Origin: Hypericibacter adhaerens
Lineage (GTDB): Bacteria; Pseudomonadota; Alphaproteobacteria; Dongiales; Dongiaceae
Length of the DNA stretch: 64,000 bases
NCBI RefSeq assembly: GCF_008728835.1
Contig: NZ_CP042582.1
Span: 4,328,217-4,392,216 of the forward strand
Direction of reading: 5' to 3'
Shown: positions 7,744 through 48,594 of the stretch, in pieces
Numbering within the stretch: the first letter of the stretch is position 1
Layout: each line of letters starts with the position of its first letter
Position numbers and translations under genes: made by a program
Notes under the pieces: model-generated
What the model was told of the DNA's origin: nothing
The model's database searches: none
Seen by the model: the letters and a program-made list of their open reading frames with translations, nothing else

Positions 7744-7774
7744 GGATCGGGCCCTTCATCCTCGTCCGGGCTGC

Positions 7775-10600: not shown

Positions 10601-10672
10601 GACCCGGGGGTGCGACCCCGTTTTCAGCCACGGGGAGCGGTCAAGCTGCCGGCCGCCGGAAGGACTCCGTGC

Positions 10673-16048: not shown

Positions 16049-16073
16049 ACCAGGATCGATGTTCGGAAGGGCG

Positions 16074-16149: not shown

Positions 16150-16396
16150 CTACCGCAAGTCGGGCGCTCGGCCATGGGACGGCCGGCCCGGAAGGGCCTT
16201 TGAATAGGGGAAGGGCCGGCCGCGATCAAGCCCTTTCGCGAGGCCTCTCAAGCCCTTGATGCGGCAGGACGTCCCACCGGCCCTGGCTGGCTCGCGCCCC
16301 GGGGCCGCGCTTTCCTTGCCATCAGCCCAAAGAGGCCCGTCCCAGCCGACCGGACGGCGCGTCAAAACCGACAAGCCCCGCGGGACTGGCGGAACG

Positions 16397-16720: not shown

Positions 16721-16816
16721 GATTTTCCCCTGAGATCGCAATCCTAGGCGGAATATTGCCTCCGGGCAGGAACGCTTTCAAGCGGCGGCGGCAATTCGCG
16801 CGCTCTTCTGCCGGCG

Positions 16817-18106
16817 TCAGCCGCCGGCCAGTGCCGGGCTCTTGGTCTTGGCCTGCATACCTGGGCGATAGGCCAGATAGCCGCGCTGCATCGAGATATG
16901 GTCCGCCAGGAACTTGGCGTCGTGCCAGACGCCCCAGATGAAGCTCGATCCCCGGCGCGACAGCCATGGCAGTCCCAGGAAATAGAGCCCCGGCACCTCC
17001 GAAACGCCGCGGCGATGCTTCGGCCGCCCCTTCTCGTCGAAGCTGCCGACCTTCAGCCAGCCATAGTCGACCGCGAAGCCCGTGGCCCAGATGATCGCGG
17101 TGATCCCGGCCTTCGCCAGGTTCAGCTCGCGCAGGGGCTCGCTCACGCAGCGCGGATCGGGCCCGATCTTGCGGGCCTCGGGCTCTTGCGGAAGATCGAG
17201 CCCGTTGCGGGCGATGAAAGCGTCCGCTTCGTCCAGCACCGAGAGGTAGTTCGCATCCCCGTTGGCGATGTTATCGGCCAGGTCCGGCGCGAAGCTCATC
17301 ACCCCGCCCCTGAACCCTTCCGCCCGCCCCACCAGCACCATCCCCCGTTCGGCGAAACGCCGGAAGTCGACGGTCTTGCCGCCATAGGCCCCGCTCACCG
17401 CGATCGTCACATGCTCCTTGCCTTGCGGCGGGGTCTCGGCATCCCACTTGCCCAGCACCCCCAGCCACCAGACGAAGTCGCGCCCGCGATAGCTCCGCGG
17501 CGGCCGGTCGTGCGGACCGACGGACAAGAAGACAGGCTTGCCCGCGCGCAGGAGCTCGTCGGCGATCTGCGCGCCCGAGGAGCCCGCCCCGATCACCAGC
17601 ACCGCACCCTCGGGCAACTGGCCGGGATTGCGGTAGGCGTTGGAATGGATCTGGAACAGCCCCGCACTCTCGGGAACGACGGTGGGGATGATCGGGCGCT
17701 GGAAGGGCCCGGTGGCGGCAACGAGATAGCTGGCCTCGATGGGGCCTTTCGAGGTTTCGACCCGGAAGCCGCGCCGGCCGACATGGCTTCGCACCGACGT
17801 GACCTCGACGCCGCAGCGGATGGGCGCCGCGATCTTTTCCGCGTAAGCGACGAAATAGTCCGCGACGCTCTCCTTGGCGGCGAAGCCGTCGGGGCCGATA
17901 TCGGAAAATTCCAGGCCTGGAAACCGGTCGTGCCAGGCCGGACCGTTGGCCACCAGCGAATCCCATCGCTCCGAACGCCAGCGCTCGGCGATCCGGTGCC
18001 GCTCCAGAACGAGGTGAGGCACCCCGCCCTTGCTCAGATGCTCGCTCATGGCGATGCCGGCCTGACCGGCGCCCACGACGAGCGTTTCCACGTTTTCGAT
18101 CGACAT
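16817..18106 (-). CDS. Flavin-containing monooxygenase-like oxidoreductase (CzcO/YhiN type)
   Basis: A 429-aa two-dinucleotide-binding flavoprotein: N-terminal FAD motif (VVGAGQAGIAMSEHL, about 10-25), a central NADPH motif (VIGAGSSGAQIADEL, about 170-185) and ATGF near the C-terminus. This is the organisation of class B-like FMOs, often annotated as putative K+-transport flavoproteins. It likely uses NADPH and O2 to oxygenate a small organic substrate, which cannot be predicted. It is monocistronic, divergent from no obvious partner. Confidence 0.9.
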   Translation of the reverse strand: MSIENVETLVVGAGQAGIAMSEHLSKGGVPHLVLERHRIAERWRSERWDSLVANGPAWHDRFPGLEFSDIGPDGFAAKESVADYFVAYAEKIAAPIRCGVEVTSVRSHVGRRGFRVETSKGPIEASYLVAATGPFQRPIIPTVVPESAGLFQIHSNAYRNPGQLPEGAVLVIGAGSSGAQIADELLRAGKPVFLSVGPHDRPPRSYRGRDFVWWLGVLGKWDAETPPQGKEHVTIAVSGAYGGKTVDFRRFAERGMVLVGRAEGFRGGVMSFAPDLADNIANGDANYLSVLDEADAFIARNGLDLPQEPEARKIGPDPRCVSEPLRELNLAKAGITAIIWATGFAVDYGWLKVGSFDEKGRPKHRRGVSEVPGLYFLGLPWLSRRGSSFIWGVWHDAKFLADHISMQRGYLAYRPGMQAKTKSPALAGG

Positions 18107-23580: not shown

Positions 23581-24735
23581 TCAAACGGTATAGGATTGCG
23601 CGCCGGTGCCCGCGAGCTTGCCGCCCTTGACGATGATGTATTCCTCGCGGATGGGGCGATCTTCGAACCAGCATTCGAGGATCTCGCGCGTGCCCGCCGC
23701 GTATCGGGCCTGGGCGGACAAGGATGTTCCGGAGATGTGCGGCGTCATGCCGTGATGGGGCATGCTGCGCCAGGGATGGTCCCTGGGCGCCGGCTGCGGA
23801 TACCAGACATCGCCCGCATAGCCGGCGAGCTGACCGCTCTGGAGGGCCCGGACGATGGCGTCGCGGTTGCAGATCTGGGCGCGCGCGGTGTCGACGATGT
23901 AGGCGCCCCGCTTCATCTGGGACAGGAGTTCGTCGTTGAACATGTTGCGCGTTCCGGGATGCAGCGGCGCGTTGATCGTGACGACATCGCAGATCTTGAC
24001 CATCTCCTCGACGCTGGCATGGAAGGCCAGACCGAGCTCCTTCTCGACCACCTCGGGCAGGCGGTGGCGCGCGAAGTAATGCAGATTCACCTGGAACGGC
24101 TTGAGCCGCCGCAGCACCGCCAGGCCGATCCGGCCCGCGGCGACCGTGCCCACATGCATGCCCTCCAGGTCGTAGGAACGCTCGACGCAGTCGGCGATAT
24201 TCCAGCCGCCCTTCTTCACCCATTCGTAGGAAGGAAGGTAGTTGCGAACCAGCGACAGGATCATCATGACCGCATGCTCGGCGACGCTGATGCTGTTCGA
24301 TCCCGTCACCTCAGCCACCGTGATGCCATGCTTGATGGCGGCCTCCAGGTCCACATGATCGGAACCGATGCCGGCCGTGAGAGCAAGTTTCAGCTTCCTC
24401 GCCTTGGCGATGCGCTCAGCACTCAGATAGGCCGGCCAGAAAGGCTGGGAGATGACGATATCGGCGTCCGGCAGCTCGCGCTCGAAGACCGACCCCTCGC
24501 CATCCTTGTCGGAAGTCACGACGAAGCTGTGACCGAGGCTTTCGAGATATTTCCGCAGGCCCAGCTCGCCCGAGACGCTCCCGAGCAGCTGGCCGGGACT
24601 GAAATCGATCCGCTGCGGCGTCGGCGCCGTCTGCCCATTATCGTAGCGAACGATGGAGGGAACCGTGTCGCGTGCATAGCTGCAGGGATAGCCGTCCATG
24701 GGATCGTCGTAGAGAACGCACAGGATCTTGGCCAT
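23581..24735 (-). CDS. fdh: NAD(P)-dependent formate dehydrogenase (D-2-hydroxyacid dehydrogenase fold)
   Basis: A 384-aa metal-free FDH, colinear without gaps with the Pseudomonas enzyme as I recall it (offset of one for Met1). It oxidises formate to CO2. Catalytic residues are present: Ile123, Asn147 (SNSISVAEH), Arg285 (DTAR), Gln314 (WYPQPAP) and His333 (PHISGT). The dinucleotide motif AAGRIGLAVL is intact. The residue that normally gives NAD+ specificity (Asp221 in the Pseudomonas enzyme, followed by Arg) is Ala222 here (YFARHR), which suggests NADP+ may be used. The two reactive cysteines of the classic enzyme are Ser146 and Ala256. The start is set by TTGGAGGCGAGCA before the ATG. The C-terminal tail is shorter than in the 400-aa enzyme. 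Confidence 0.93.
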   Translation of the reverse strand: MAKILCVLYDDPMDGYPCSYARDTVPSIVRYDNGQTAPTPQRIDFSPGQLLGSVSGELGLRKYLESLGHSFVVTSDKDGEGSVFERELPDADIVISQPFWPAYLSAERIAKARKLKLALTAGIGSDHVDLEAAIKHGITVAEVTGSNSISVAEHAVMMILSLVRNYLPSYEWVKKGGWNIADCVERSYDLEGMHVGTVAAGRIGLAVLRRLKPFQVNLHYFARHRLPEVVEKELGLAFHASVEEMVKICDVVTINAPLHPGTRNMFNDELLSQMKRGAYIVDTARAQICNRDAIVRALQSGQLAGYAGDVWYPQPAPRDHPWRSMPHHGMTPHISGTSLSAQARYAAGTREILECWFEDRPIREEYIIVKGGKLAGTGAQSYTV

Positions 24736-24878
24736 TGCTCGCCTCCAATGTTCGGAACCGACAGCGGATTCACGGGGGACCGGGACAAGGGCGGCCCGGA
24801 CCGGAACGACATCCGCATTCACCCGATCGACGGGGCAGCCGGGCGCCTCCCGGGGCCGGGCGCTTCGTCTGACGGGCG

Positions 24879-32273: not shown

Positions 32274-33482
32274 TCAGACGGCCGCGCGCCGGTTATGGCC
32301 TGGGGGCAGCTCCTCCAGGAGCTGGCGGGCCACCCATTCATGGAAACAATGGGTCGGCGCATCCATCACGGGCGAGAACTTGCCGCCGTCGAAGCCGGCG
32401 GCGTGGCGGCCGCGCTGCATGCCCTCGACGACGAAGACATCCTCGAGGAACACCTGGCGCCACATGGCGGTGTTGTGCCGGCGCATCTCCGCCATCCCGT
32501 CCGCCAGCATCGCGGGATCGGCATAATAGAGCTCGAGATGCTCGATGGTGCGGTCGGGCGCCACCGGTTCCAGCATCAGGGCGAAGAAATGATCCTTGTG
32601 GACGCCCAGCAGGACGTTCGGGAAGAGCGAGGCATATTCGGCGCCATGGTCCCATTGCGCCGACAGGTCCGCGAAGGAGGCGAAGCGCTCGCCCCGCGAT
32701 CCGAGCTGCGGGTTATAGACCCGCGATCCCTGGCCGGAGAAGGCGCCCGGCTCGACGATGTTGTAATGGTCCTCGAGCCGCGAATAGCTGTTGAGGCCGG
32801 GATGCACCCAGGGCAGGTGATAGCTCTCGCAATAATTCTCGACCGCGAGCTTCCAGTTGGTCTTGAGATCGAAGCGGGTCGATGAATCGGCGCCACCGTG
32901 ATGGAGCGGCTGGCGGGCGAACTCCCGCCAGCGCCGGTCGAGCTTCGCGATATGCGTCTCGAAATCGGGCGCCTGGCCCGAGAGATTGACGAAGACCAGA
33001 TCCATCCAGACATGCGAGCGCAGCGCGAAGAGGCCGAGCTCCTCGCGCTTCACCTCGGGATGGCTGTTCTGGCCGGGGCCGCCCACATGCGGCGTGGCGC
33101 GCAAGGCGCCCTCGAGATCGTAGCTCCAGGAATGGTAGGGGCAGCGGATCAGGCCGTTGCAATGACGCGGCGCGTCGACGAGCGTCATGCCGCGATGGCG
33201 GCAGACATTCTCGAACACCCTGACCTGCCCCTTGCCATCGCGCACCATCAGCATCGGCCGGCCGAACAGCTCGATCGGCTTGAGGTCGCCCGCGTTGGGC
33301 AGGTCCTTGGCGAAACCGATGCAGGCCCAGTTGCGCGCGAAGACGCGTTCCTGCTCGACGGCGAAGACCGCGGGATCGATATAGGCGGCGTTCGGCAGGC
33401 CGCGCGCCGTTTCGACCGGACCCAGCACCTTCTCGAGGGCGCTGCCGTCCAATCCGGCGACCGATGCTGACAGGACCGACAA
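32274..33482 (-). CDS. Rieske-type aromatic ring-hydroxylating / N-demethylating oxygenase alpha subunit
   Basis: A 402-aa oxygenase component. The Rieske [2Fe-2S] ligands are Cys94-x-His96 and Cys114-xx-His117 (CRHRG and CPYHSW). The mononuclear iron site includes His222 and His227 in NYCESYHLPWVHPG, with Glu219 as the electron-bridge position. The protein resembles the GbcA/CntA (glycine betaine or carnitine) type more than benzene dioxygenases. No reductase gene is adjacent, so electrons must come from elsewhere. The gene ends 146 bp before hisZ on the same strand. The substrate is unproven. Confidence 0.9.
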   Translation of the reverse strand: MSVLSASVAGLDGSALEKVLGPVETARGLPNAAYIDPAVFAVEQERVFARNWACIGFAKDLPNAGDLKPIELFGRPMLMVRDGKGQVRVFENVCRHRGMTLVDAPRHCNGLIRCPYHSWSYDLEGALRATPHVGGPGQNSHPEVKREELGLFALRSHVWMDLVFVNLSGQAPDFETHIAKLDRRWREFARQPLHHGGADSSTRFDLKTNWKLAVENYCESYHLPWVHPGLNSYSRLEDHYNIVEPGAFSGQGSRVYNPQLGSRGERFASFADLSAQWDHGAEYASLFPNVLLGVHKDHFFALMLEPVAPDRTIEHLELYYADPAMLADGMAEMRRHNTAMWRQVFLEDVFVVEGMQRGRHAAGFDGGKFSPVMDAPTHCFHEWVARQLLEELPPGHNRRAAV

Positions 33483-35339: not shown

Positions 35340-35537
35340 GTCAGTCTCCCGGAAGAAGCTCCAGTCGCGGCAGGCCCCATGGGGTGGGGCCCTCTGATCC
35401 CTGGTTGCCGGTTTGCCCCAGCGTCTTTCTCATGCGACGGCCCGATGCGCAGGCTGTTGTCGGAGCCTGACCGTCTCGCAGACGAATCCCGATTGTGAGT
35501 GGCAACAATCAGGGTTGCGCCATAGGAAACAATGAAT

Positions 35538-35574
35538 ACAATCCTCCCAGTTTCATCGTCAATGTGTGGATTGT
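35538..35574. promoter_or_regulatory. ACAATCC / GGATTGT inverted repeat in the phzF-MocR intergenic region
   Basis: Exact 7-bp arms at 35538-35544 and 35568-35574 are separated by 23 bp, placing the half-sites on nearly the same helix face (30 bp centre to centre). They lie immediately before the MocR start codon, so autoregulation is possible, and upstream of the divergent phzF operon. The element is short, so the assignment is tentative. Confidence 0.35.
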
Positions 35575-35578
35575 CGTC

Positions 35579-36979
35579 ATGACAATTTGGTCGCCCGATC
35601 TGACGGGCCGCACGGGCCCCCGCTACATCGCCATCGCCGATGCGCTGGCCGGCGACATCCAGGCCGGACGGCTTGGCGCCGGGGACCAGCTGCCGACGCA
35701 CCGCGCGCTCGCCGATGCGCTGGGCGTCACGGTCGGCACCATCACCCGCGCCTATGCCGAGGCGGCGCGGCGCGGGCTCATCGGCGGCGAGGTCGGCCGC
35801 GGCACCTATGTGCGCGGCCAGGCCGACCGCACCAACGCCCTCTTCGTCGCGAGCAGGCGGCCCGAGAGCCGGCCGAACACGCCGCTCATCGCCGACATGC
35901 GCCACAACTTCGCGCCGCGCCTGACGCAGGATGACAGCATCAACCGGGCGCTCGCGGCGCTGGCGGGCGAGAATATCGAGCCTTTCCTGGCCTACCAGAC
36001 GCATGAGGGCATGGCCGAGCATCGCGCGGCCGGCTCCGAATGGGTGGCGCTCTCCGGCGTCGCGGCCGAGCCCGATCGCCTGCTCGTCACCTGCGGCGGC
36101 CAGCACGGCACCGCCATCGCCTTCAACTCGCTGCTCGAGCCGGGCGACACGCTGCTGACGGAGGCCCTGACCTATCCCGGCGTGCGCACCCTGGCGCGCA
36201 TGCTGCGGCTGCGGATCCAGGGCATTGCCATGGATTCCGAAGGCCTGATTCCGGAAGCGTTCGAGGCGGCCTGCCGGCAGGGCTCGCCGCGCGCACTCTA
36301 TTGCATGCCGACGATGCAGAACCCGACCGGCACCGTAATGTCGGTCGAGCGGCGGCGCGCGGTCGCCGAGATTGCCGAGCGCTACGGCGTCGCCCTGATC
36401 GAGGACGATGTCTATGGCTATCTGATCGACAACGCCCCGCCGCCGCTGATGAGCTACGCGCCGACGCAGGGCTATTACCTCACCAGCCTCTCCAAATGCA
36501 TCGCGCCGGGCCTGCGGATCGGCTATCTCGTCGTGCCGCCGAACCAGACCGACCGCTTCCTGCCGGCGATGCAGGCGAGCGTCTGGATGGCGGCCCCGCT
36601 CATGGCCGAGATCGCGCGCCGCCTGATCGCGGACGGCACCGCCCATCGTCTCGCCGACGCAAGGCGCCAGGAGGCGCGCGCCCGGCAGAACCTCGCGCGC
36701 CATGCGCTGGGCTCGCTCGGCTGGCGCGCCAATCCCGTGGCGCTCCATGGCTGGCTCAGGCTCTCCGAATCCTGGCGCGCCGAGGATTTCGCGATCGCCG
36801 CCGCGGCCAAGGGGGCACCCGTCACGCCGGTCGGCGCTTTCGCCGTCAACCGCACCAAGGAACAGGCCGTGCGCATCTGCCTGGGTGCTGCCAGCGACCG
36901 CACCTGCCTCGCCCGCGCGCTGGGCGAGCTCGCCAACCTCGCGGTGGCGGCGCCGGAGCCTTATCTGTCGGTGGTGTGA
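35579..36979 (+). CDS. MocR-family (GntR winged helix + PLP aminotransferase-like) regulator
   Basis: A 466-aa protein with an N-terminal GntR-type winged helix (about 12-80, LPTHRALADALGVTVGTITRAYAEA) joined to a fold-type I aminotransferase-like domain. CMPTMQNPTGTVMS and the PLP-lysine motif SLSKCIAPGLRIGY are present, so the cofactor should bind. MocR proteins sense amino acids or PLP derivatives. Its position, divergent from phzF-azlCD, suggests it controls that operon. The start is the ATG that follows a weak GTGTGGA; longer in-frame starts lack support. Confidence 0.92.
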   Translation: MTIWSPDLTGRTGPRYIAIADALAGDIQAGRLGAGDQLPTHRALADALGVTVGTITRAYAEAARRGLIGGEVGRGTYVRGQADRTNALFVASRRPESRPNTPLIADMRHNFAPRLTQDDSINRALAALAGENIEPFLAYQTHEGMAEHRAAGSEWVALSGVAAEPDRLLVTCGGQHGTAIAFNSLLEPGDTLLTEALTYPGVRTLARMLRLRIQGIAMDSEGLIPEAFEAACRQGSPRALYCMPTMQNPTGTVMSVERRRAVAEIAERYGVALIEDDVYGYLIDNAPPPLMSYAPTQGYYLTSLSKCIAPGLRIGYLVVPPNQTDRFLPAMQASVWMAAPLMAEIARRLIADGTAHRLADARRQEARARQNLARHALGSLGWRANPVALHGWLRLSESWRAEDFAIAAAAKGAPVTPVGAFAVNRTKEQAVRICLGAASDRTCLARALGELANLAVAAPEPYLSVV

Positions 36980-37912: not shown

Positions 37913-39259
37913 CTACTTCCCCGCCCGCTCGATCGCCTGCGCGATGTCCTCGACCACGCGGCCGACGAGCGCTTCGTCCTCGCCCTCGGCCATGATGCGG
38001 ATCACGGGCTCGGTGCCGGATTTGCGGATCAGCACGCGGCCATTCGTGCCCAGCGCCGTCTCGCCGCCCTTGATCGCGGCCTTGACCTCGTCGCGCTCGA
38101 GCGGCTGGCCGCCGTTGAACTTGAGGTTCTTCAGGAGCTGCGGCAGCGGCTGGAACAGCCGCGTTGTCTCGGAGACCGGCCGACCGGCGCGCACGATCAC
38201 CGCCAGCACCTGCAGCGCCGCGATCAGCCCGTCGCCGGTGGTGCCGTAGTCGCCCAAGATGATATGGCCGGACTGCTCGCCGCCGACATTGCAGCCCTCG
38301 GCGCGCATGCGCTCCACCACATAGCGGTCGCCCACCGGCGTGCGGAGCAGTTTGAGCTTGAGCCCCGCGAGGAACCGCTCAAGCCCCAGGTTCGACATGA
38401 CCGTCGCCACCACGGCACCGCCCTGGAGCCGGTCGCGCTCGGCCCAGGAACGCGCGATCAGCGCCATGATCTGGTCGCCGTCGACGATCTGCCCCTTCTC
38501 GTCGACCAGGATCAGCCGGTCGGCATCGCCGTCGAGCGCCAGACCCAGATCCGCCTTCTCGGCGATCACGCGCTTCTGCAGCGCCGCCGGCGCCGTGGCA
38601 CCGCACTCGCGGTTGATGTTGAAGCCGTCGGGCGCGTCGCCGATCGCGACCACCTCGGCGCCCAGCTCCCAGAGCACGGTGGGCGCCACGCGGTAGGCGG
38701 CGCCGTGGGCGCAATCCACCACGATCTTGAGCCCGTCGAGATTGAGCGATTTGGGGAAGCTGCGCTTGACCGCCTCCATATAGCGGCCGCGCGCGTCGTC
38801 GAGCCGCAGCGCGCGGCCGAGCTCAGCCGAGGGCGCCGCCTGCAGCGTCTCGTGCGCCGCCATGCGCGCCTCGATGCGCGTCTCGACCTCGTCGGAGAGC
38901 TTGTAGCCGTCCGGCCCGAACAGCTTGATGCCGTTATCCTCGTAAGGATTGTGCGAGGCCGAGATCATCACGCCCAGATCGGCGCGGAGCGAGCGCGTCA
39001 GCATCGCGATCGCCGGCGTCGGCATCGGCCCCAGCAGGATCACATCCATGCCCATGGCGACGAAGCCCGAGGTCAGGGCCGGCTCCAGCATGTAGCCCGA
39101 GAGCCGCGTGTCCTTGCCGATCACGACGCGATGACGGTGATCGCCGCGGGTGAACTCGGCCCCCGCCGCCATGGCGAGCTTCAAGGCCGTCATGGCCGTG
39201 ACCGGCTCGGCATTGGCCTTGCCGCGGATGCCGTCGGTGCCGAAGAGCTTGCGTGTCAT
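37913..39259 (-). CDS. glmM: Phosphoglucosamine mutase
   Basis: A 448-aa alpha-D-phosphohexomutase. The catalytic Ser102 lies in ISASHNP; the metal loop is LDGDADR; the sugar-binding loop is GGEQSGH; the phosphate loop is [10 protein letters not shown]. It converts glucosamine-6-P to glucosamine-1-P for peptidoglycan and LPS. In many proteobacteria, glmM follows ftsH-folP directly. Here the strand and order are kept, but 6.2 kb of catabolic genes intervene. Confidence 0.97.
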
Positions 39260-39393: not shown

Positions 39394-40422
39394 CTACAGG
39401 ACCCGCCCCTGGCGAACGACGGGCTTGCCGTCGAGCGCCACATCGCAATTGCGCATCGGAATGTCGATATGGCAGGCCGTCGTCCGCGATCCGCCCCCTT
39501 CGTTGTTCGGGCCCATGGAGAACAGGAAGTTGCCGGCGAAGGCTCGGGCATCCATGCCGATGGTCGCTTCGCGGTCGTAGAGGCCGAGGGTCGACCAGCG
39601 GGCCTTCTTCTGCAGCCCCCAGCCGACATGGGACACGGCGTAGGCTTCCGGATCGTCGAACGCGCTCATGTAGTCGTTGAGCAGGGCCGCATCGATATCG
39701 CCCTGGATGGCGGTCACATAGCCGTTCTTCACCGTCATCTCGATGGGGGTGTCGATATAGCTCTTCATCGGCAGCAGGATGTCACCCCGATCGAGGACGA
39801 CGCGGCCCGAGGCCTGCCTCTCATTGGGGAAGGTGAAGGTGAAGCCACTCGGCCAATGGTCCCAGCGGCCGGGCCGGTCGACATAGCCGTATTCCTCGAT
39901 GACCGGAAATTCCCCGATCGGCAGGTGCAGGTCGGTGCCGGCGGCGGAGGTCACCCGCATCTCGCGAGCCCCCTTCAAGAGAGCGGCCGCTTCCGCGCAA
40001 AGGCGCTTGTCGCCGGCCGAAGGCAGCAGCCGCACCAGGACCTCCGGCGGCTCGACCGCCAGCAGGATCTTGGTCCCGCTCTCGAGGATCTCCGCCTGTT
40101 CCGGGGAGAAGAGAAGCGTCATGAGATCGAGCACCAGGTCGCTCTTCTTCAGCGCGGCCATGGCCGCCGGATTGCCGGAGAGCGGCGTGCTGCCGAGATA
40201 GGCGAGGCTGTCGCGGCTATGCGCCAGCTCCGCATTGACCGGCGACAGGTCGAGGCGATTGACGATCGCGCCCATGTTCGCGGCCGCGATCTTCGCCGTC
40301 CGCAGCGTCTGCGCGTTGCTGTTCTCGGTCGTGAGAAGGGTGACCACTTGCCCGTGGCTCAGGTTCGAGAGGCCCAGGACATGGGTCCAGGCCTGGACCA
40401 TATCGGCATCGCTGACCGGCAT
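39394..40422 (-). CDS. nicX: 2,5-dihydroxypyridine 5,6-dioxygenase (NicX-like)
   Basis: A 342-aa protein of the M29-like NicX family. The iron ligands of the Pseudomonas putida enzyme, as I recall them (His265, His318, Asp320), occur at the same residue numbers here (SHVGWG and ACHIDIP). Other strongly family-like stretches are GRWDHWPSGF, ILLAVEPPEVL and NFLFSMGPN. The enzyme opens the ring of 2,5-dihydroxypyridine to N-formylmaleamate, the key step of nicotinate degradation. It ends the minus-strand operon, just after the NicC-like gene (21-bp gap). Confidence 0.9.
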   Translation of the reverse strand: MPVSDADMVQAWTHVLGLSNLSHGQVVTLLTTENSNAQTLRTAKIAAANMGAIVNRLDLSPVNAELAHSRDSLAYLGSTPLSGNPAAMAALKKSDLVLDLMTLLFSPEQAEILESGTKILLAVEPPEVLVRLLPSAGDKRLCAEAAALLKGAREMRVTSAAGTDLHLPIGEFPVIEEYGYVDRPGRWDHWPSGFTFTFPNERQASGRVVLDRGDILLPMKSYIDTPIEMTVKNGYVTAIQGDIDAALLNDYMSAFDDPEAYAVSHVGWGLQKKARWSTLGLYDREATIGMDARAFAGNFLFSMGPNNEGGGSRTTACHIDIPMRNCDVALDGKPVVRQGRVL

Positions 40423-40443: not shown

Positions 40444-41661
40444 TTAGGCCGCCACGAACGCGGAAGAGCGCGGGTCGAACTTGCGGGCATCGTACTCGTA
40501 GACCCAGTTCGCCTGGATCCCCGTCGCCTGCGGATTGACGAGGCTCTTCATCCAATAGACGAAGTCCCGTTTCATCTGCGAGAGCGCGGAAGGCAGATGA
40601 TAGGTGCGGCCGCGCTCGCGTGCCTCGAGCTGGACACGGCTCGTCCGGCCGAGCCGTTCCGCCTCGTAGGCGGCAAGCCCGGCGGCGATGTCCTGGCGGT
40701 TGAGATCCAGCGCCGCAGCCAGAACGAAGGCGTCCTCGATCGCCATGGCTGCGCCTTGCGACAGGAACGGCAACATCGGATGCGCCGCGTCGCCCAGCAG
40801 GGTCACGGCGCCCTTCGACCATCCGGCCATCGGATCGCGGTCGAACAGGCCCCATTTGAAGACCGTCTCGACCTGGTCGAACAGCCTTTGGACGTTGGGA
40901 TGCCAGCCCTGGAAGGCGCCGAGAAGCTCCGCCTTGCTGCTTTCGACATTCCAGGCTTCCTCGACCCAACGGGCCGTCTCGGCCACGGCCACGATGTTCA
41001 CGGCTTTCCCGCCCTGAACGTAATAGGTGACGACATGGCTCTTGGGACCCATCCAGAAGGAAGCGTCCGGGCTCACATGGCCGACAACGTCTTCGACCGG
41101 AACGAGAGCCCGATAGCACATATGGCCGGTGAACCGCGGCGCCTCGGGGCCGAACAGGGCCGACCGCACCGCGGAGCGGACCCCGTCCGCGCCGACGATG
41201 AGATCGGCCTCGAAACTGCTGCCATCCGCGAACCGCGCGACCGCCGATTTGCCGTGCTGCGTGACACCCGTGCAGGTCATGCCGAAACGGGTGAAGGCTT
41301 CCGGCACCGCCGACGCGAGAACGCGGCGCAGATCGGCGCGGTGGATATGAATGAACGGCGCATCGTAGAGGGTGGGACAGACCTCCTTCAGCGGCGTGCG
41401 GAAGGTGACGCGGCCCGAGCGCCAATTGCGGCCGACGATCGCGTTCGGCAGGAAGCCTACCTCGAGCATCGGCTCGAGCAACCCCAGCGCCTTCATGACC
41501 TTCACGGCATTGGGCGTCATCTGGATGCCGGCGCCGATTTCGCTGATCCCCTCGGCGCGCTCGAACAGATGCACCTCGACGTTCCGCTGCAGCAGGCTCG
41601 CCGCGAGCGCGGTGCCGCCGATGCCGCCGCCGACGATGCCGATCTTCAAACGCTCCCGCAC
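40444..41661 (-). CDS. FAD-dependent aromatic monooxygenase (NicC-like)
   Basis: A 405-aa group A flavoprotein hydroxylase. Motifs: GIVGGGIGGTALAASLL (FAD/ADP), DLIVGADGVRSAVR and LLGDAAHPMLPFLSQGAAMAIED. The C-terminal WVYEYD and general layout resemble 6-hydroxynicotinate 3-monooxygenase, which makes 2,5-dihydroxypyridine with loss of CO2, the substrate for the NicX next door. Salicylate-hydroxylase-like activity is the alternative. GTG at 41661 is chosen as start because GGGGAGGGG lies right before it; a GTG ten codons upstream has no ribosome binding site. Confidence 0.85.
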   Translation of the reverse strand: MRERLKIGIVGGGIGGTALAASLLQRNVEVHLFERAEGISEIGAGIQMTPNAVKVMKALGLLEPMLEVGFLPNAIVGRNWRSGRVTFRTPLKEVCPTLYDAPFIHIHRADLRRVLASAVPEAFTRFGMTCTGVTQHGKSAVARFADGSSFEADLIVGADGVRSAVRSALFGPEAPRFTGHMCYRALVPVEDVVGHVSPDASFWMGPKSHVVTYYVQGGKAVNIVAVAETARWVEEAWNVESSKAELLGAFQGWHPNVQRLFDQVETVFKWGLFDRDPMAGWSKGAVTLLGDAAHPMLPFLSQGAAMAIEDAFVLAAALDLNRQDIAAGLAAYEAERLGRTSRVQLEARERGRTYHLPSALSQMKRDFVYWMKSLVNPQATGIQANWVYEYDARKFDPRSSAFVAA

Positions 41662-41701
41662 GGCCCCTCCCCTTCCCGCTGCCCTGTTCACGACCGCGCG
41701 T

Positions 41702-42745
41702 TCAGGCCAGCTTCTTCTTCAGATTGCCCTCGTAGGCGTTGTCGACCCGACCCAGGACATAGTCGCCGGCCCGGATCGGCGGGTATTTGGGCGCTTCGCC
41801 TTCCGGCACGCAGTTGGGCAGCGGCGACATGACGATGTCGTCGTCCGAGCCGAAGAAGAACGCGATCGAGGTGCGGTCCATAGCATTCTTGTTCAGGACG
41901 CGATGCATGGTCGAGGAGAAGAGGTCGTTGGTCCACCGCTCCATCTGGTCGGCGATGTTGATCACGAAGGTGCCGGGAATCGGCGGTACCGAAATCCATT
42001 CGCCCTTGCCGTTGACCACCTGGAGCGCGGTGATGCCCTTCTGCTGCGCCAGGATGGTGAAGCACTCGAAATCGGTATGGGCGCCATTGCCGATATCCTC
42101 GTCGTCGCTGGCCTGATCCTCCTGCGGCGGATAGTGATTGACCCGCATCATGGTGATCGGCTTGGTGATCATCGGCTGGAAATGGTCTTCCGGCAGATCG
42201 AGCGCGAGCGCGAAACCGCCCAGGAGCTTCTGCCCCAGATTCCGCATCTCGCCGAAATAGGTGAGCAGGGTGTCGCGGAATCCGGCGGGCCGGCGGGGCC
42301 AGGAGTTCGGCTCGAAGAAGGGCCGGCGCGACGTGACATAGGGGTCGTCGAGCGGCAGCTCGAGATTCATGTTGAAGCCCTCCTGCCGCTTGCGCGACTT
42401 GGCGTCGCCGGATTCTTCCTGCATGGGCGTGTAGCCGGGATAGCCCGGCGTCCGGGTCTGCTCGATCTCCATCTTCTCCGCATAGGGCAGGGCGAAGAAT
42501 TCGGCCGAGGCCGCGAAAGCCTGGTCGATGATCGGCTGGGGCACGCCGTGGTTCTTGAGATAGAAGAACCCGACCTCGATGCAGGCCGATCGCAGGGCCT
42601 GGGCCATCGCCCGTTTCGCCTCGGGATCGCTGCCGAACATCGGCGCGAGATCGATGACGGGAAGCTCGGAGAAGTCGGTCTGCCGGGCGCTGAGCCCGAC
42701 GGGCACCTGCCGGCCGTATCGATCCAGTCTGTATCCCATCGCCAT
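41702..42745 (-). CDS. 2-oxoglutarate/Fe(II)-dependent oxygenase, isopenicillin N synthase family
   Basis: A 347-aa enzyme with an N-terminal DIOX_N domain (LPVIDLAPMF, GFFYLKNHGVP) and a 2OG-FeII_Oxy domain with His-x-Asp (GAHTDFECF), a distal His (STMHRVLN) and the Arg in RTSIAFFF that would hold 2-oxoglutarate. It hydroxylates or demethylates a small molecule; within this locus it may act on a substituted pyridine, which is inference. AGGAGACGGTG precedes the ATG. Gap of 40 bp to the NicC-like gene. Confidence 0.9.
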   Translation of the reverse strand: MAMGYRLDRYGRQVPVGLSARQTDFSELPVIDLAPMFGSDPEAKRAMAQALRSACIEVGFFYLKNHGVPQPIIDQAFAASAEFFALPYAEKMEIEQTRTPGYPGYTPMQEESGDAKSRKRQEGFNMNLELPLDDPYVTSRRPFFEPNSWPRRPAGFRDTLLTYFGEMRNLGQKLLGGFALALDLPEDHFQPMITKPITMMRVNHYPPQEDQASDDEDIGNGAHTDFECFTILAQQKGITALQVVNGKGEWISVPPIPGTFVINIADQMERWTNDLFSSTMHRVLNKNAMDRTSIAFFFGSDDDIVMSPLPNCVPEGEAPKYPPIRAGDYVLGRVDNAYEGNLKKKLA

Positions 42746-42794
42746 CACCGTCTCCTGCTCCTGAAATCCGCCGTCGCACTCGCCGATCGCGTTC

Positions 42795-43415
42795 TCAGCC
42801 CGGTCTCATCATGAAGAACATCGCCTCGGGCTGGATGAGCGCGTAATCGCCCCGGCCGCCGGCTCTCAAGACAGGCCTGGCGGCGGCGGTCTGATAGATG
42901 CCCTCGACCAGCAGCGACCGGTCGATATGAACGGCGACCACCTCGCCGAAGGTCATCCAGGTCTCGACGGGCCGCTGCGCCGCGTCCTTGAGCTGCAGGA
43001 TCTCGCACAGGCGGCATTCGAAATGGACCGGGCTCCCCGCGACGCGGTCCGGCCGCACCCGCCGGCCGGGCAGGCCCAAAAGGCCGGCCAGATCGAACTC
43101 GTCCGTGTCCCGCGACACGGCGGCGGAGGTGGCGTTCATCTTCTCCGCGAGGGAATCGACCACGAGGTTCCAGACGAACTCCCCCGTCTTGGCGATGTTG
43201 CCAACGGTGTCCTTCCAGCCGTTGCTGGCAAACCCGATGATGGGCGGCCGATAGCAGAAGGCGTTGAAGAAGCTGTCGGGCGCCAGGTTGCGGCGGCCGG
43301 TTTCGTCGCGCGTAGAGATCCAGCCGATGGGCCGGGGCCCGACGATCGCATTGAAGGGATCGTGGGTGAGGCCATGTCCCTGGGACGGCTCGTAATAGTG
43401 ATAGTCGTCCGCCAT
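42795..43415 (-). CDS. Flavin reductase-like protein (DIM6/NTAB family)
   Basis: A 206-aa split-barrel FMN-binding protein. FNAIVGPRPIGWISTRD and LAPDSFFNAFCYRPPIIGF are typical of the flavin reductase/DIM6-NTAB family. It could supply reduced flavin to an oxygenase in the operon or be a flavoenzyme itself. It is the first gene of the minus-strand operon, with start preceded by GAGGGTGATCG, and one palindrome ATCGTATACGAT lies 41 bases upstream. Confidence 0.88.
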   Translation of the reverse strand: MADDYHYYEPSQGHGLTHDPFNAIVGPRPIGWISTRDETGRRNLAPDSFFNAFCYRPPIIGFASNGWKDTVGNIAKTGEFVWNLVVDSLAEKMNATSAAVSRDTDEFDLAGLLGLPGRRVRPDRVAGSPVHFECRLCEILQLKDAAQRPVETWMTFGEVVAVHIDRSLLVEGIYQTAAARPVLRAGGRGDYALIQPEAMFFMMRPG

Positions 43416-43455
43416 CGATCACCCTCGGCACCGCGCCGGCATCGGTTCGCAGAAG

Positions 43456-43467
43456 ATCGTATACGAT
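43456..43467. promoter_or_regulatory. Palindromic operator 1 for the pyridine locus
   Basis: ATCGTATACGAT is a perfect 12-bp palindrome, 41 bases upstream of the flavin reductase start. A second copy with one mismatch lies before the divergent GntR gene. FCD-type GntR proteins bind short palindromes of this kind, so both are inferred sites of the adjacent regulator. Confidence 0.65.
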
Positions 43468-43599
43468 TTATGTCATCAAAGCAGATGCGCAGCGGCCCAG
43501 CAAGCCTGAACGCCGATTTCACATAATATATTGCAAATTATGCCATATTTACGTTCCGTCGACCGCGAAGAGCCGCCCAGCCTTGCGAGTTTTGACATC

Positions 43600-43611
43600 A
43601 ACGTATACGAT
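43600..43611. promoter_or_regulatory. Palindromic operator 2 for the pyridine locus
   Basis: AACGTATACGAT matches operator 1 at 11 of 12 positions with the CGTATACG core intact. It lies 77 bases upstream of the GntR start codon, so it could mediate autoregulation. The two sites are 144 bp apart centre to centre, which would allow looping. Confidence 0.6.
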
Positions 43612-43687
43612 ATTGGTTGTTGCTTGGGGGCGGCAGTTCAGCCCCTGAGCGAGACGAAACGGGCTTTGGAAGCAGCGCGGAAAGCCG

Positions 43688-44455
43688 ATGGTCGACATGG
43701 CGAGAGCGGGCCTCAACCTCGGCTCCGGCCGCAAAGGCAGCGTTCCGGATCCGGCGAAGCGGATGCCGATCCACGAAAGGATCCTTCCGCGGATCCGCAA
43801 GGACATCATCCTGAACCGCTGGCAGCCCGGCGAACGGCTGCCGGAAACCGACCTCTGCACGGAGTTCGGCATCTCCCGCACGCCGTTGAGGGATGCCTTC
43901 AAGATTCTGGAGGTGGAAGGGTTCGTCGCCCTGACGCCTCATGTGGGCGCGATCGTCACGCCCCTGACCGCCCGGGACGTCATGGAGAAATTCGAGGTCA
44001 TGAGCGGGCTGGAGCAGATAGCCGCGATGAAGGTCGCGCGATCGCAAGCCCCGGAAACCCTCGCCCTCGTCAAGCGCATTCACCGCGGCATGAAGCGCAG
44101 CGCCAAGGAAGGGAATGCCACCCAGTACTACCGGCAGAACGACGAGTTCCACCGCGCGATCGTCATGGGTGCCGGCAATCTCACCCTGGTCCAGATGCAC
44201 CAGAACCTGATGCTCCATGTGAGCCGTGCCCGCAATCTGATGCACATGTACGAGCCGCTTTCGGAAGCGGCGTTCGAGCATCATTCGGAGATCGTCCGCG
44301 CGATCCTGGCGGGCGACGGCGACGCCGCGCGACGCGCGATGGAAGATCATCTGGGACAGGTCGCGGCGCTCATGCTGCACCATGTCCGGTCGGAGAACGA
44401 CGCGACCCTGCCGGCGGGCGTCCCGGCCGCAGGGATGCGGGCACGCACCGAATGA
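43688..44455 (+). CDS. GntR-family transcriptional regulator (FCD/FadR subgroup)
   Basis: A 255-aa regulator. The winged helix (about 30-95) includes LPETDLCTEFGISRTPLRDAF; the C-terminal all-helical FCD domain (about 100-235) has the metal-ligand-like His residues in NDEFHRAIV and HHSEIVRAI. It should sense an organic acid, probably a pathway intermediate. It is divergent from the oxygenase operon. The described nicotinate regulator NicR is of the MarR type, so this locus uses a different control family. Confidence 0.9.
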   Translation: MVDMARAGLNLGSGRKGSVPDPAKRMPIHERILPRIRKDIILNRWQPGERLPETDLCTEFGISRTPLRDAFKILEVEGFVALTPHVGAIVTPLTARDVMEKFEVMSGLEQIAAMKVARSQAPETLALVKRIHRGMKRSAKEGNATQYYRQNDEFHRAIVMGAGNLTLVQMHQNLMLHVSRARNLMHMYEPLSEAAFEHHSEIVRAILAGDGDAARRAMEDHLGQVAALMLHHVRSENDATLPAGVPAAGMRARTE

Positions 44456-44474
44456 TGAAACGCGGGTCGGCGGC

Positions 44475-45470
44475 GTGACCTGGGCGGAAGAGACCGGGAC
44501 GTTTTCCTTGGGCGATCTGCCGGTGGCGGGCGGCGTTCTGCAGGATGCCGTCCTCAGCTGGAAGACCTATGGCAGCCTGAGCCCGAGCCTCGACAACGTG
44601 ATCCTCTATCCCACCAGCTTCGGGATCGGTCATACGGACCAGGAATGGCTCATCGGCCCGGGCAAGGTGCTCGATCCGACCCGCTGGTTCATCGTGACGC
44701 CGAACCTGTTCGGCAACGGCTTTTCCAGCAGTCCCTCCAACCGGCCGGACTGGCCGCCGCTGGTCACCTATCAGGACAATGTCGACGCCCAGATGAAATT
44801 CCTGGCCGGGCGGTTCGGCATCTCGCGAATCGCCTGCGTCTACGGATACTCGATGGGCGCTCAGCAGGCCTATCACTGGGCCGCCCGCCATCCGGAGGCC
44901 GTCGACCGGATCATCGTCGTGTGCGGCAGCGCCCGCACCTCGGAGCATAACCGCGTCTTCCTGTCCGGTCTGAGGGCCGTTCTGGAAACCGCCCCGGAGC
45001 ATCTCGTTGCCGGACGGTTCTCGGCCGAGCCCATCGCCACGCTGCGGGCCTTCGGGCGCATCTATGCCGGCTGGGGCCTGAGCCAGGATTTCTACCGGGC
45101 CGGCCTGCATCTCTCGGCCTTCCAGGCCGCGAGCCTGGAGGAATTTCTCCGCGTCAACTGGGAAGACCGTTTCGCCCGGCGGTCCGCGGCCAATCTCCAT
45201 GCCCAGCTTTGCACCTGGCATGCGGGCGATGTCGCCGCGGGGCAGGATCTCGCCGCCGCGTTACGCCGGATCCGGGCAGCGGTTCTTCTGCTTCCCGGCG
45301 AGACCGATCTCTATTTCAGGGTCGCGGACAACGAAGCCGAACTGCCTTGTCTGAAGCAGGCCGAACTGCGCGTCATTCCCAGCAAATGGGGCCACCGCGC
45401 CGGCAATCCGCTGCAGAATCCCGAGGACGCCGCCTTCCTCGCGAAACAGGTTCGTCGCTGGCTGAGTTGA
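44475..45470 (+). CDS. MetX-like alpha/beta hydrolase
   Basis: About 331 aa of the homoserine O-acetyltransferase-like alpha/beta hydrolase family: VLSWKTYGSLSPS, NLFGNGFSSSPSN, nucleophile elbow GYSMGAQQAYHWA, Asp in GETDLYF and His in WGHRAGNP. Real MetX proteins acetylate homoserine, but in this context hydrolysis is likely, for example deformylation of N-formylmaleamate, the NicX product. This is inference; NicD is a different alpha/beta hydrolase subgroup. The start is uncertain: GTG at 44475 follows the GntR stop by 19 bases, while an ATG at 44382 would overlap the GntR gene by 74 bp. Confidence 0.8.
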   Translation: MTWAEETGTFSLGDLPVAGGVLQDAVLSWKTYGSLSPSLDNVILYPTSFGIGHTDQEWLIGPGKVLDPTRWFIVTPNLFGNGFSSSPSNRPDWPPLVTYQDNVDAQMKFLAGRFGISRIACVYGYSMGAQQAYHWAARHPEAVDRIIVVCGSARTSEHNRVFLSGLRAVLETAPEHLVAGRFSAEPIATLRAFGRIYAGWGLSQDFYRAGLHLSAFQAASLEEFLRVNWEDRFARRSAANLHAQLCTWHAGDVAAGQDLAAALRRIRAAVLLLPGETDLYFRVADNEAELPCLKQAELRVIPSKWGHRAGNPLQNPEDAAFLAKQVRRWLS

Positions 45471-45489: not shown

Positions 45490-46647
45490 TCATGGCGACG
45501 CCAGGGCCTGCCACACGGCAACCGCCTGGGCCGTTTCGGCGACGTCATGGACGCGGATCATCTGCGCGCCCGTGCGGAGGCCCCAGAGGGCGGCCGCCAG
45601 CGAGCCCGCAAGGCGATGGCTCGCATCCTCGCCGCGGCTGAGCTTGGCGATGAAGCTCTTGCGCGAGACCCCGAGCAGCACGGGGCAGCCCAGCCCCTGC
45701 AGCAGCGCCAAGCGGTGGAGAATGTCCTGGTTATGGGCGACCGATTTGCCGAAGCCGATGCCCGGATCGATCGCGATCCGCCGGCGCGGCAGGCCGGCCG
45801 TTTCGGCCGTTTCGATCTGCGCGGCGAAATAGTCATAGAGATCGAGCGCCGCCTCGCGATAGCGCGGGTTCGCCTGCATCGTGCGCGGCTCCCCCTGCAT
45901 GTGCATGAGCACGACGCCCGCCCTGCTTCGGGCCGCGACGCCGAGGCTTTCGGGATCGCCTGTCAACGCCGTCACGTCGTTGATGATCGAGGCCCCCGCC
46001 TCCACCGCCGCCGCCATCACGCTCGAATGGCGCGTATCGATCGAAATCACGGCGCCGGATTTATGCAACCCCTGGATCACCGGCACCACGCGTCGGATTT
46101 CTTCGGCGGCGCTGACGGGCTCGGCGCCGGGCCGGGTGGATTCCCCGCCAATATCGAGGATCCCGGCACCGGCTTCGACCAGCCTGCGGCCATGTTCGAT
46201 CGCGCGGCCCGCATCGAGGAACTGTCCGCCGTCCGAGAAGCTGTCGGGCGTGACGTTGATGATCCCCATGATCCTCGGCCGGTCCATCGCGAGCCCCGCG
46301 AAGCGCGGCCGCCTGGCCGTCAGCCGATCCAGGAGCGCCTCGAGACGCCGGCGCATCGCAGCCGGCTGGCGCCTGAGGGAACGCTCGAAGTCAGGCGCGG
46401 CGAAGCCCGCTGCCGCGCGCTTGCGCGCATCGCGCTGGATGAGCTCGATCTGGGTAAAGGCAAGCGGTCCGCCCGCCAGCGGCAGGGCCCGGCCGGCCTT
46501 GACCGCGGCCCACGCGGCCTCGCCCGACAGCAGCCCCTCCGGCAAAAGATAGAGCCGGCGATCCTTCGCGGGATCGCCGGCTCGGGAACCGGATGGGCGT
46601 CGAGGCGGGGACGCGCGCGTCCCGCCTTTGCGGGAAGCACCCGCCAT
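45490..46647 (-). CDS. folP: Dihydropteroate synthase with N-terminal extension
   Basis: A 385-aa protein. The pterin/pABA-binding DHPS core spans about 120-380: IMGIINVTPDSFSDGG, DIGGESTRPGAEPV, SIDTRHSSV, INDVTAL, DPGIGFGKS and GVSRKSF. The preceding about 105 residues are an extra N-terminal region frequently found in alphaproteobacterial FolP. It makes dihydropteroate for folate synthesis. The start lies nine bases after the ftsH stop, so the genes are cotranscribed. The convergent MetX-like gene ends 19 bp away. Confidence 0.93.
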   Translation of the reverse strand: MAGASRKGGTRASPPRRPSGSRAGDPAKDRRLYLLPEGLLSGEAAWAAVKAGRALPLAGGPLAFTQIELIQRDARKRAAAGFAAPDFERSLRRQPAAMRRRLEALLDRLTARRPRFAGLAMDRPRIMGIINVTPDSFSDGGQFLDAGRAIEHGRRLVEAGAGILDIGGESTRPGAEPVSAAEEIRRVVPVIQGLHKSGAVISIDTRHSSVMAAAVEAGASIINDVTALTGDPESLGVAARSRAGVVLMHMQGEPRTMQANPRYREAALDLYDYFAAQIETAETAGLPRRRIAIDPGIGFGKSVAHNQDILHRLALLQGLGCPVLLGVSRKSFIAKLSRGEDASHRLAGSLAAALWGLRTGAQMIRVHDVAETAQAVAVWQALASP

Positions 46648-46656: not shown

Positions 46657-48594
46657 TCAGGCGCCGGGCTGGGGCTCGGGCTCGAAGCCGGGCCGCGGAC
46701 GGCCGCTGTCGCCACGGGCCGGCGTGCCGCTGGTGGGCACCGAGGAACGCGGCGGCACGGGGCCGGAGCTGTCCTCGCCGCCGACGCGGATCGGCTCACC
46801 GCGCAAGAGCGCCTTCACCTCGTCGCCACTCAGCGTCTCGTACTCGAGGAGCGCCTTCGCGATCCGATGCAGATCCTCGATATGTTCCGAGAGGATGGTG
46901 CGCGCCTTGAGCTCCGCCTCCTCGATGATGCGACGGATCTCCTCGTCGATCAGCTTGGCGGTGGCGCCGGAGATGGTCTGGCTGCGCGTGACCGAATGGC
47001 CCAGGAAGACCTCTTCCTGGTTGTCGACATAGCGCAGCCGGCCGAGCTTCTCGCTCATGCCCCATTCCGTCACCATCCGGCGGGCCAGATTGGTCGCCTG
47101 CTGGATGTCGTTGCTGGCGCCGGTCGAGACGTTCTCGGGCCCGTAGATCAGCTCCTCGGCCATGCGGCCGCCGAACATCATGGCGAGCTTCGCCACGATC
47201 TCGCGGAACTTGAGGCTGTAGCGGTCGGTCTCGGGCAGGTTCATCGTCACGCCGAGCGCGCGGCCGCGCGGGATGATCGTCACCTTATGCAGGGGATCGT
47301 TGCCCGGCACGAACAGGCCCACCAGCGCGTGGCCGGCCTCGTGATAGGCGGTCTCTTCCTTGTCCTTCTCGGTCATGACCATGGAGCGGCGTTCCGCGCC
47401 CATCATGACCTTGTCCTTGGCGGCCTCGAACTCGGCCATGGTGACGACGCGCTTGGAGCGCCGGGCGGCCAAGAGCGCCGCCTCGTTCACCAGGTTCGAG
47501 AGGTCGGCGCCGGAGAAGCCCGGCGTGCCGCGCGCGATCGTGCGCGGATCGACGTCGGGCGCCAGCGGCACCTTGCGCATATGGACTTTCAGGATCTGCT
47601 CGCGGCCCAGGATGTCCGGGTTCGGCACCACGACCTGGCGGTCGAAGCGGCCCGGGCGCAGCAGCGCCGGGTCGAGCACGTCCGGGCGGTTGGTCGCGGC
47701 GATGAGGATCACGCCCTCGTTCGCCTCGAAGCCGTCCATCTCGACCAGCAGCTGGTTCAGGGTCTGCTCGCGCTCGTCATTGCCGCCGCCGAGGCCGGCG
47801 CCGCGATGGCGGCCGACCGCGTCGATCTCGTCGATGAAGATGATGCAGGGCGCGTTCTTCTTGCCCTGCTCGAACATGTCGCGCACGCGGGAGGCACCCA
47901 CGCCCACGAACATCTCGACGAAGTCGGAGCCCGAGATCGTGAAGAAGGGGACGTTGGCCTCGCCGGCGATGGCGCGGGCGAGCAGCGTCTTGCCGGTGCC
48001 CGGGGGACCCACCAGCAGCACGCCTTTCGGAATCTTGCCGCCCAGGCGCTGGAACTTCTGCGGGTCCTTGAGGAACTCCACGACTTCCTGCAGCTCGAGC
48101 TTGGCCTCGTCGATGCCGGCGACGTCCTCGAAGGTGACGCGGCCGACCTTCTCGGTCAGGAGGCGCGCGCGCGACTTGCCGAAGCCCATGGCCTTGCCGC
48201 CGCCCGCCTGCATCTGGCGCATGAAGAAGATCCAGACGCCGACCAGCAGCAGCATCGGGAACCAGGAAATCAGGATCTGGAGCAGCGGGTGCACGCCCTC
48301 GTCGATCGGCGCGGCCGTGATCTTCACGCCCTTATTGGTGAGGTCCGACACCAGGTTCGGATCGTTCGGCGCATAGGTCTGGAAGGCGCGGCCATCGCCC
48401 GAGAAATGCCCGGAAATGGTCTGGCCCTGGATCGTCACATCCGCGATCCGGCCGTTGGCCACCTCGGTCAGGAATTCCGAATAGGCGATATCGCTCTGAG
48501 GCCCGCGATTGGTCGTGCCATCGAACAGGTTGAAGAGCGCGATCAGGAGCAGCGCAATGATGATCCAAAGCGCGAAGTTTTTCGTGAGATTCAA
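46657..48594 (-). CDS. ftsH: ATP-dependent zinc metalloprotease FtsH
   Basis: A 645-aa membrane protease. Two N-terminal membrane helices flank a small periplasmic domain; the AAA module follows with Walker A ([13 protein letters not shown]), Walker B ([15 protein letters not shown]) and the second region of homology ([18 protein letters not shown]); the M41 peptidase has the HEAGH zinc site. It degrades misfolded membrane proteins and regulators including RpoH and LpxC in other bacteria. A Pro/Ser/Gly-rich tail of about 40 residues ends the protein. folP follows directly. Confidence 0.97.

Follow-up and report, generated by a model that had tools for sequence, protein, structure and literature searches.

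Which compound does a NicX-type ring-cleaving dioxygenase receive when its gene stands beside oxygenase, reductase and hydrolase genes that the described nicotinate pathways lack, and which enzyme makes that compound? The question is raised by a window of 64,000 nucleotides from Hypericibacter adhaerens (contig NZ_CP042582.1, positions 4,328,217 to 4,392,216). Here four minus-strand genes, for a flavin reductase (42795..43415), a 2-oxoglutarate/Fe(II) (2OG) oxygenase (41702..42748), an FAD monooxygenase (FMO; 40444..41691) and NicX (39394..40422), are divergent from two plus-strand genes, for a GntR/FCD regulator (43688..44455) and a MetX-like alpha/beta hydrolase (44382..45470). A preliminary description of this DNA named the five enzymes; they and the regulator are present as full-length open reading frames (ORFs), with matching Pfam families for all but NicX, and NicX falls just outside the span 40444..45470 to which it assigned them. 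Our best explanation, to which we give a probability of roughly 0.55, is that the six genes form one acquired catabolic module whose front end is exchangeable and supplies the FMO with its substrate, and that the lower steps come from a second cluster at 5.15 Mb of the same genome.

In this explanation GntR would hold both divergent promoters through CGTATACGAT operators until the substrate or an intermediate frees it from them. The 2OG oxygenase would then oxidise or remove a side group of a substituted pyridine, giving a 5-hydroxypicolinate-like acid; the FMO would hydroxylate and decarboxylate this acid to 2,5-dihydroxypyridine, as HpaM does; NicX would open the ring; and the deformylase, amidase and isomerase whose genes are present in the NicX-bearing cluster at 5.15 Mb would complete the route. 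In relatives the same type of FMO would receive its substrate from a Rieske oxygenase with a reductase, or from a luciferase-like monooxygenase with a flavin reductase, while in others no such partner is seen.

Ring cleavage and the monooxygenase before it

The evidence is strong that the product of the last operon gene would cleave 2,5-dihydroxypyridine to N-formylmaleamate, and the preliminary description was right to recognise a NicX here. No Pfam or NCBIfam model matched this protein, and its alignment with Pseudomonas putida NicX (PDB 7cn3) extends over residues 1-341 with E 2.6e-117. It keeps E308 together with E177, H189, H265, R293, S302, H318, D320 and L104, the last eight being given as iron- or substrate-binding residues in the accessible part of PMC7910607. 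Position H105 is F in the window protein and in 70/70 aligned rows that cover it (these include repeats of one gene), and the H105F variant stays active according to the same part of that paper. Position C76 is L; the variants C76Q and C76E are inactive, and L is absent among the variants noted in that part (PMC7910607). At E<=1e-40 a NicX-like gene occurs in 2 of 17 genomes of the order, namely this one and that of the other species of the genus (39% in the latter). Two plasmids carry homologues in other company (loci are given our own L numbers): on a Variovorax plasmid (L009, 7547-13685) a 61% homologue has a Rieske oxygenase set and NicF as neighbours, and on a Rhizobium sp. ACO-34A plasmid (L010, 6671-14577) a 52% homologue, with Q at position 177, adjoins a gene annotated as pyridoxine 4-oxidase.

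The monooxygenase, a Pfam FAD_binding_3 protein, had been described as NicC-like. Its best PDB match is tropone 2-monooxygenase, with NicC next; where it aligns with NicC the two share no more than 37% identity, and of the residues that we take to form the NicC pocket it keeps H211 and Y215, while C202, Y225 and H302 are changed. We therefore rejected NicC orthology and assign the protein to a separate family, which looks like that of HpaM. Among 385 genomes drawn evenly from the class, that of H. adhaerens is the only one with this FMO at E<=1e-110. A wider scan, with one genome per species, yielded 118 loci, of which we kept 80 (56-76% identity). A NicX homologue lies within the fetched stretch in 59 of these 80 FMO loci; NicX, NicD and NicF occur together in 55 and are joined by NicE in 42; TetR is found in 58, and 44 have an ABC substrate-binding protein that resembles the Azospirillum one. 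The Alcaligenes and Pusillimonas proteins of this family share 62-63% identity with the window FMO; together with their kin they make up one group of the FMO tree (100/100 support). In Alcaligenes sp. SORT26 (62%) NicD, NicX, NicF and TetR adjoin the FMO gene. Alcaligenes faecalis JQ135 is said to break down 5-hydroxypicolinate by an hpa operon encoding HpaM, HpaX, HpaD, HpaF and the regulator HpaR. Because the NicX/NicD/NicF context matches this operon, we infer from family and locus context that the FMO is an HpaM-type, decarboxylating 5-hydroxypicolinate monooxygenase. The name HpoO is given to a 5-hydroxypicolinate monooxygenase in the accessible part of PMC6692525.

A candidate operator and a proposed exchangeable front end

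The intergenic gaps among the four minus-strand genes, 46, 10 and 21 bases by ORF coordinates, make the arrangement operon-like. The divergent promoter between them and the GntR gene holds two palindromes, ATCGTATACGAT at 43456..43467, 41 bases before the flavin reductase start, and CGTATACGAT at 43602..43611 on the plus strand, 77 bases before the GntR start. Operators of FadR-type GntR regulators have the shape of a GT-AC palindrome; the Pfam GntR and FCD domains of the regulator and the CGTATACGAT palindrome fit a protein of this type, and both sites are taken here as candidate operators. The 5.87-Mb genome contains two sites for CGTATACGAT, both within the divergent promoter, and 2 matches to the reversed control pattern.

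Over the 1.516 Mb of the 80 FMO loci CGTATACG occurs 8 times, and in four loci (L028, L051, L061 and L069) it lies <=1 kb upstream of the FMO gene, compared with 0.22 expected (Poisson P 9e-5). All four carry a GntR of the window's group, and relatives of the window GntR (43-58%) were found in 10 of the 80 loci; the GntR tree excludes repeats of the window gene, a short match in L010 and a second match in L069. In locus L076, CGTATACG precedes a 2OG oxygenase reading frame by 112 bases and a divergent transporter gene by 19. A sigma-70 scan gave no promoter match in the region. The case for control by the GntR protein, as a putative repressor, is good but incomplete; such control would cover the operon and, judged from their position, the GntR gene and its MetX-like neighbour. 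The preliminary description had considered that the genes might not be co-regulated; the shared operators contradict this, at the level of sequence only.

The 2OG oxygenase and the flavin reductase do occupy the upstream positions attributed to them, as identified by Pfam DIOX_N and 2OG-FeII_Oxy and by PF01613, respectively. The closest relative found for the window 2OG protein (55%) is the one in L076, its sister at 100/100 on a long stem in a 12-row tree (own fragments and same-gene repeats, L001, L011, L097, L098, L140, L141, L172 and L174, were excluded). The iron triad H224, D226 and H282 and the 2OG-binding R292/S294 (R-x-S) are identical in the two proteins. The L076 gene also stands beside an FMO, in a row at 2224-7419 that runs 2OG oxygenase, 3-oxo-tetronate kinase, class II aldolase, FMO, NicE, with the divergent ABC transporter adjoining. 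The window and L076 FMOs fall in different parts of the FMO tree, and this joining of sister 2OG proteins to two separate FMO branches speaks for one pathway. A functional tie between 2OG oxygenase and FMO is thus supported by operon position, phylogeny and shared operator. Relatives of the 2OG oxygenase are otherwise scarce or differently placed: at E<=1e-88 they occur in 2 of 398 genomes of the phylum, the own genome included; other genomes of the order have distant relatives alone (39-45%); the 330 plasmid records that match reach 48% at best; and other relatives at 47-48% stand beside transport or purine-type genes. A structure prediction from a two-row alignment had a mean predicted local distance difference test (pLDDT) score of 30.9 and was not used.

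What stands at the front end in the other FMO loci? We counted a Rieske oxygenase in 16 of the 80, a luciferase-like monooxygenase in 5, a 2OG oxygenase in 1 (L076) and none in 58, where "none" covers the queried oxygenase types only and includes loci cut by contig ends. The counts omit weak Rieske (27%, L046) and luciferase-like (27-28%, L079) matches, a pair of Rieske oxygenase and reductase genes (36-37%) at a distance of about 5 kb in L028, and partial flavin reductase matches in L050 and others. The Rieske front ends are of the VanA_C type, 52-92% identical to the Gluconacetobacter query, and a ferredoxin-type reductase, recognised by eye, lies beside them in 5/5 loci inspected. The five luciferase-like loci, all from Rhizobiales (L049, L063, L065, L067 and L068, about 2300-11200 in each), combine an NtaA/DmoA-type monooxygenase with a flavin reductase, a GntR, an oligopeptide-type ABC transporter and the FMO; a plasmid locus (L176) also has luciferase-like genes. 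On an FMO tree whose 90 rows comprise the 80 loci, the window, plasmid loci and one second copy (that of L055 was dropped for a stop in the aligned stretch), the four front-end labels need 9 changes, compared with a mean of 22.7 when shuffled. By this measure the front end is clustered by lineage, yet has been gained, lost or exchanged several times. The window itself has a lone ORF like a Rieske oxygenase alpha subunit at 32274-33482 on the minus strand, near an AzlCD-like transporter; it had no NCBIfam match at E 1e-40.

The chemistry at this step is where the explanations divide. One sub-case of our best explanation, the nearest to the methylated pyridine proposed in the preliminary description, makes the 2OG oxygenase a methyl oxidase in the style of thymine-7-hydroxylase, which would convert 5-hydroxy-2-methylpyridine stepwise to 5-hydroxypicolinate for the FMO and NicX. 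Thymine dioxygenase is indeed among the PDB matches (E 2.4e-31), and the Rieske front ends point to methyl groups as well: VanA_C-type oxygenases and N- and O-demethylases act on these, and the PDB matches of the Rieske proteins, led by SxtT and SxtDIOX, go on to the methylxanthine N-demethylases NdmA and NdmB and, lower, the dicamba O-demethylase DdmC. However, the best match of the 2OG oxygenase is an enzyme named as ethylene- and succinate-forming (E 2.8e-61), TropC, hyoscyamine hydroxylases and others also rank above thymine dioxygenase, and the sequence carries no substrate information; we consider this sub-case unlikely. A broader reading, still doubtful though somewhat less so, is that Rieske, luciferase-like and 2OG enzymes, the last represented in the window, are interchangeable dealkylating oxygenases from unrelated superfamilies that would release the same 5-hydroxypicolinate core from alkylated forms; these may include 5-hydroxypicolinates with an N- or O-alkyl group, N-substituted pyridinium-3-ol betaines among them.

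Several observations weigh against the module as we have drawn it. Sixteen control palindromes gave 0 to 5 sites near an FMO gene, from totals of 0 to 72, and one of them had 3 near sites of 16 in all. Six of the 10 GntR loci, the five from Rhizobiales and L045, are without CGTATACG; the Rhizobiales regulators are the closest of all to the window GntR (57-58%), yet lack the site. The HpaM assignment refers to family members and not to a proven HpaM sequence. The only other locus with a 2OG front end was found through its FMO, and the kinase and aldolase between its 2OG and FMO genes are not explained by our model. Finally, among 44 FMO genomes (45 of the 80 loci were chosen and L068 was left out), a 2OG relative at E<=1e-70 occurs in 3, in 2 of which it is not beside the FMO as far as read. 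We therefore rejected a general link between 2OG oxygenases and FMO-bearing genomes, and base the link that we propose on the operator, the position of the gene in the operon and a single sister protein.

The lower pathway and the other genes of the block

The steps below NicX can be traced to the second cluster (C1:5138600-5158500; L003, about 5805-17634), which contains homologues of NicX (44% to the window NicX), NicD, NicE and NicF. The genome's only NicD match (40%) and its only strong NicE match (58%; the next is 29%) are located there, along with a molybdenum hydroxylase, a phosphoenolpyruvate (PEP)-utilising protein, an ammonium-transporter-like ORF and a GntR. This cluster looks like the hpd cluster of Ensifer adhaerens HP1, which reportedly serves 3-hydroxypyridine breakdown. 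The two kinds of module also occur together in Acetobacter conturbans (L069, 5374-14400), where the neighbours of an FMO-NicX-NicF-NicD-GntR set are an HD-type ORF and a molybdenum hydroxylase that shares 69% identity with the one at 5.15 Mb. A whole-genome scan found no CGTATACGAT at the 5.15-Mb cluster; by this sign the lower pathway would lie outside the GntR regulon, a further point against our best explanation.

The presence of NicD, NicE and NicF in this cluster means that the MetX-like protein need not be a deformylase. The preliminary description had given it that role behind a NicC-type core, while allowing that nicD, nicF and nicE might lie elsewhere and suffice; the first part of that proviso, their location elsewhere, holds. 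In favor of a MetX-like N-formylmaleamate deformylase, the gene follows that of GntR within the block, an arrangement in which the two may be induced together, and NicD and MetX are both alpha/beta hydrolases. But the protein has no significant full-length similarity to NicD (the top local alignment spans 32 residues and scores 22.7 bits), the model would leave the amidase and the isomerase to be supplied from another place, the FMO differs from NicC, and those relatives of the MetX-like protein that were examined stand in unrelated places: 40 of the 384 further genomes compared from the class carry one (45-69% identity, E<=1e-75), and nine regions fetched around them held no core pathway gene. 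We regard this model as very improbable. MetX homoserine O-acetyltransferase was rejected as an identity (TIGR01392, 101.6 bits against a cut-off of 500), whereas the PRK07581 subfamily of NCBIfam is matched with 369.5 bits (cut-off 332). Annotated from its first ATG, the MetX-like ORF overlaps the 3' end of the GntR gene by 74 bases. With 0 occurrences in the 80 FMO loci, it was also rejected as a conserved part of the trunk.

The flavin reductase, the first gene of the operon, was rejected as a trunk part as well. Among the 384 further genomes compared from the class, 74 hold a relative at E<=1e-40; the 12 regions around the nearest of them (51-65%; some regions are short) contain no core pathway gene, and a relative (37-38%) lies beside NicF in only 2 of the 80 FMO loci (L071 at 4963 and L078 at 5054, both Celeribacter), where it directly follows NicE-NicD-NicX-NicF. 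Could it instead feed an unlinked luciferase-like monooxygenase, the true first enzyme, with the 2OG oxygenase acting at another point? The Rhizobiales loci pair just such enzymes, and the own genome has luciferase-like relatives elsewhere at 52% and 46%, with a third frame at 32% that contains a stop. The window reductase, however, lies outside the subfamily of the Rhizobiales loci, with no match to their reductase, and a search of the window for a luciferase-like partner gave no match at E 1e-10; this arrangement seems very improbable. As their genes lie in the block, the flavin reductase and the MetX-like hydrolase may both serve the pathway.

The same data invite a more sceptical account, in which a plain hydroxypyridine module would be made up of FMO, NicX and GntR, with the genes for the 2OG oxygenase, the flavin reductase and the MetX-like hydrolase lying next to it by chance, as passengers. 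The 58 loci without a visible front-end oxygenase fit such a module, as do the scarcity of reductase and MetX-like genes in FMO loci and the lack of a pathway link in the examined relatives of both. Evidence on the 2OG oxygenase speaks against a passenger: its gene is 10 bases from that of the FMO, its sister is likewise found beside an FMO and behind CGTATACG, and other front-end oxygenases take this position in 21 further loci. This account is improbable in our judgment, and we return to an acquired module of six genes with an exchangeable front end. Acquisition is also suggested by the surroundings. The block is flanked by two housekeeping genes, by glmM (37913..39259, minus strand; TIGR01455 above cut-off) on one side and by folP (45490..46647, minus strand; TIGR01496 above cut-off) on the other, with ftsH (46657-48594; TIGR01241 above cut-off) beyond folP. 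Since ftsH-folP-glmM is a common gene order, the six-gene block looks inserted. Its lower G+C content (0.625-0.661 in 1-kb steps inside, 0.651-0.739 outside) weakly backs the insertion.

Two other window features may be recorded. A MocR-type regulator at 35495-36979 on the plus strand passes the NCBIfam cut-off of the ectoine regulator EhuR (485.6 against 480 bits) and adjoins a PhzF-family gene. An NAD-dependent formate dehydrogenase, with a score of 696 bits against a cut-off of 329, is encoded at 23581-24822 on the minus strand. When N-formylmaleamate is broken down, formate arises as a by-product, but a link to the pathway is doubtful at so large a distance.

Comparison with known systems

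The 2,5-dihydroxypyridine trunk is already known; the new parts are the putative 2OG front end, the apparent exchange of front ends among three oxygenase families, and the candidate operator. We recognised this gene set in no paper among the openly licensed literature searched, and do not claim that it is absent from print. The different entry into 2,5-dihydroxypyridine foreseen in the preliminary description survives as a trunk with an unusual entry and a 2OG oxygenase tied to the FMO; the NicC core and the MetX-like deformylase do not. If the dealkylation reading is true, it would indicate a neglected class of natural growth substrates, with a 2OG oxygenase as an entry enzyme of hydroxypyridine breakdown. 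If our best explanation holds, soil bacteria would enter the 2,5-dihydroxypyridine pathway from pyridines beyond nicotinate, picolinate and simple hydroxypyridines, and the entry enzyme could be read from the gene adjoining the monooxygenase. The operator offers a simple handle for finding the regulon, and the few front-end enzymes a direct test for the hidden substrate.

Like the hpa operon, the window block has a putative HpaM-family FMO adjoining a 2,5-dihydroxypyridine dioxygenase. It differs in having a GntR/FCD regulator in place of a TetR-type one, in holding only NicX of the counterparts of hpaX, hpaD and hpaF (the rest are at 5.15 Mb), and in adding the 2OG oxygenase, the flavin reductase and the MetX-like hydrolase. 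With the P. putida nic cluster (NicAB, NicC, NicX, NicD, NicF and NicE) it shares NicX and the lower pathway, but its FMO is distant from NicC, and no NicAB was seen among the ORFs read around the block. The hpd cluster ends, like the route proposed here, in 2,5-dihydroxypyridine and the same lower steps; there a molybdenum hydroxylase and a PEP-utilising protein provide the entry, in place of an FMO. The pic cluster for picolinate reaches 2,5-dihydroxypyridine through PicA, PicB and the decarboxylase PicC (accessible part of PMC10142695) and again has the lower pathway in common; none of the three Pic proteins was seen among the block genes, the genome not having been searched for them. The putative HpaM-type loci found here, with either a Rieske oxygenase and reductase (in genera such as Pseudomonas and Gluconacetobacter) or a luciferase-like monooxygenase (in Rhizobiales), share the FMO family, and those of Rhizobiales and Gluconacetobacter also a related GntR, while their front-end oxygenase belongs to another superfamily than the 2OG oxygenase of the window.

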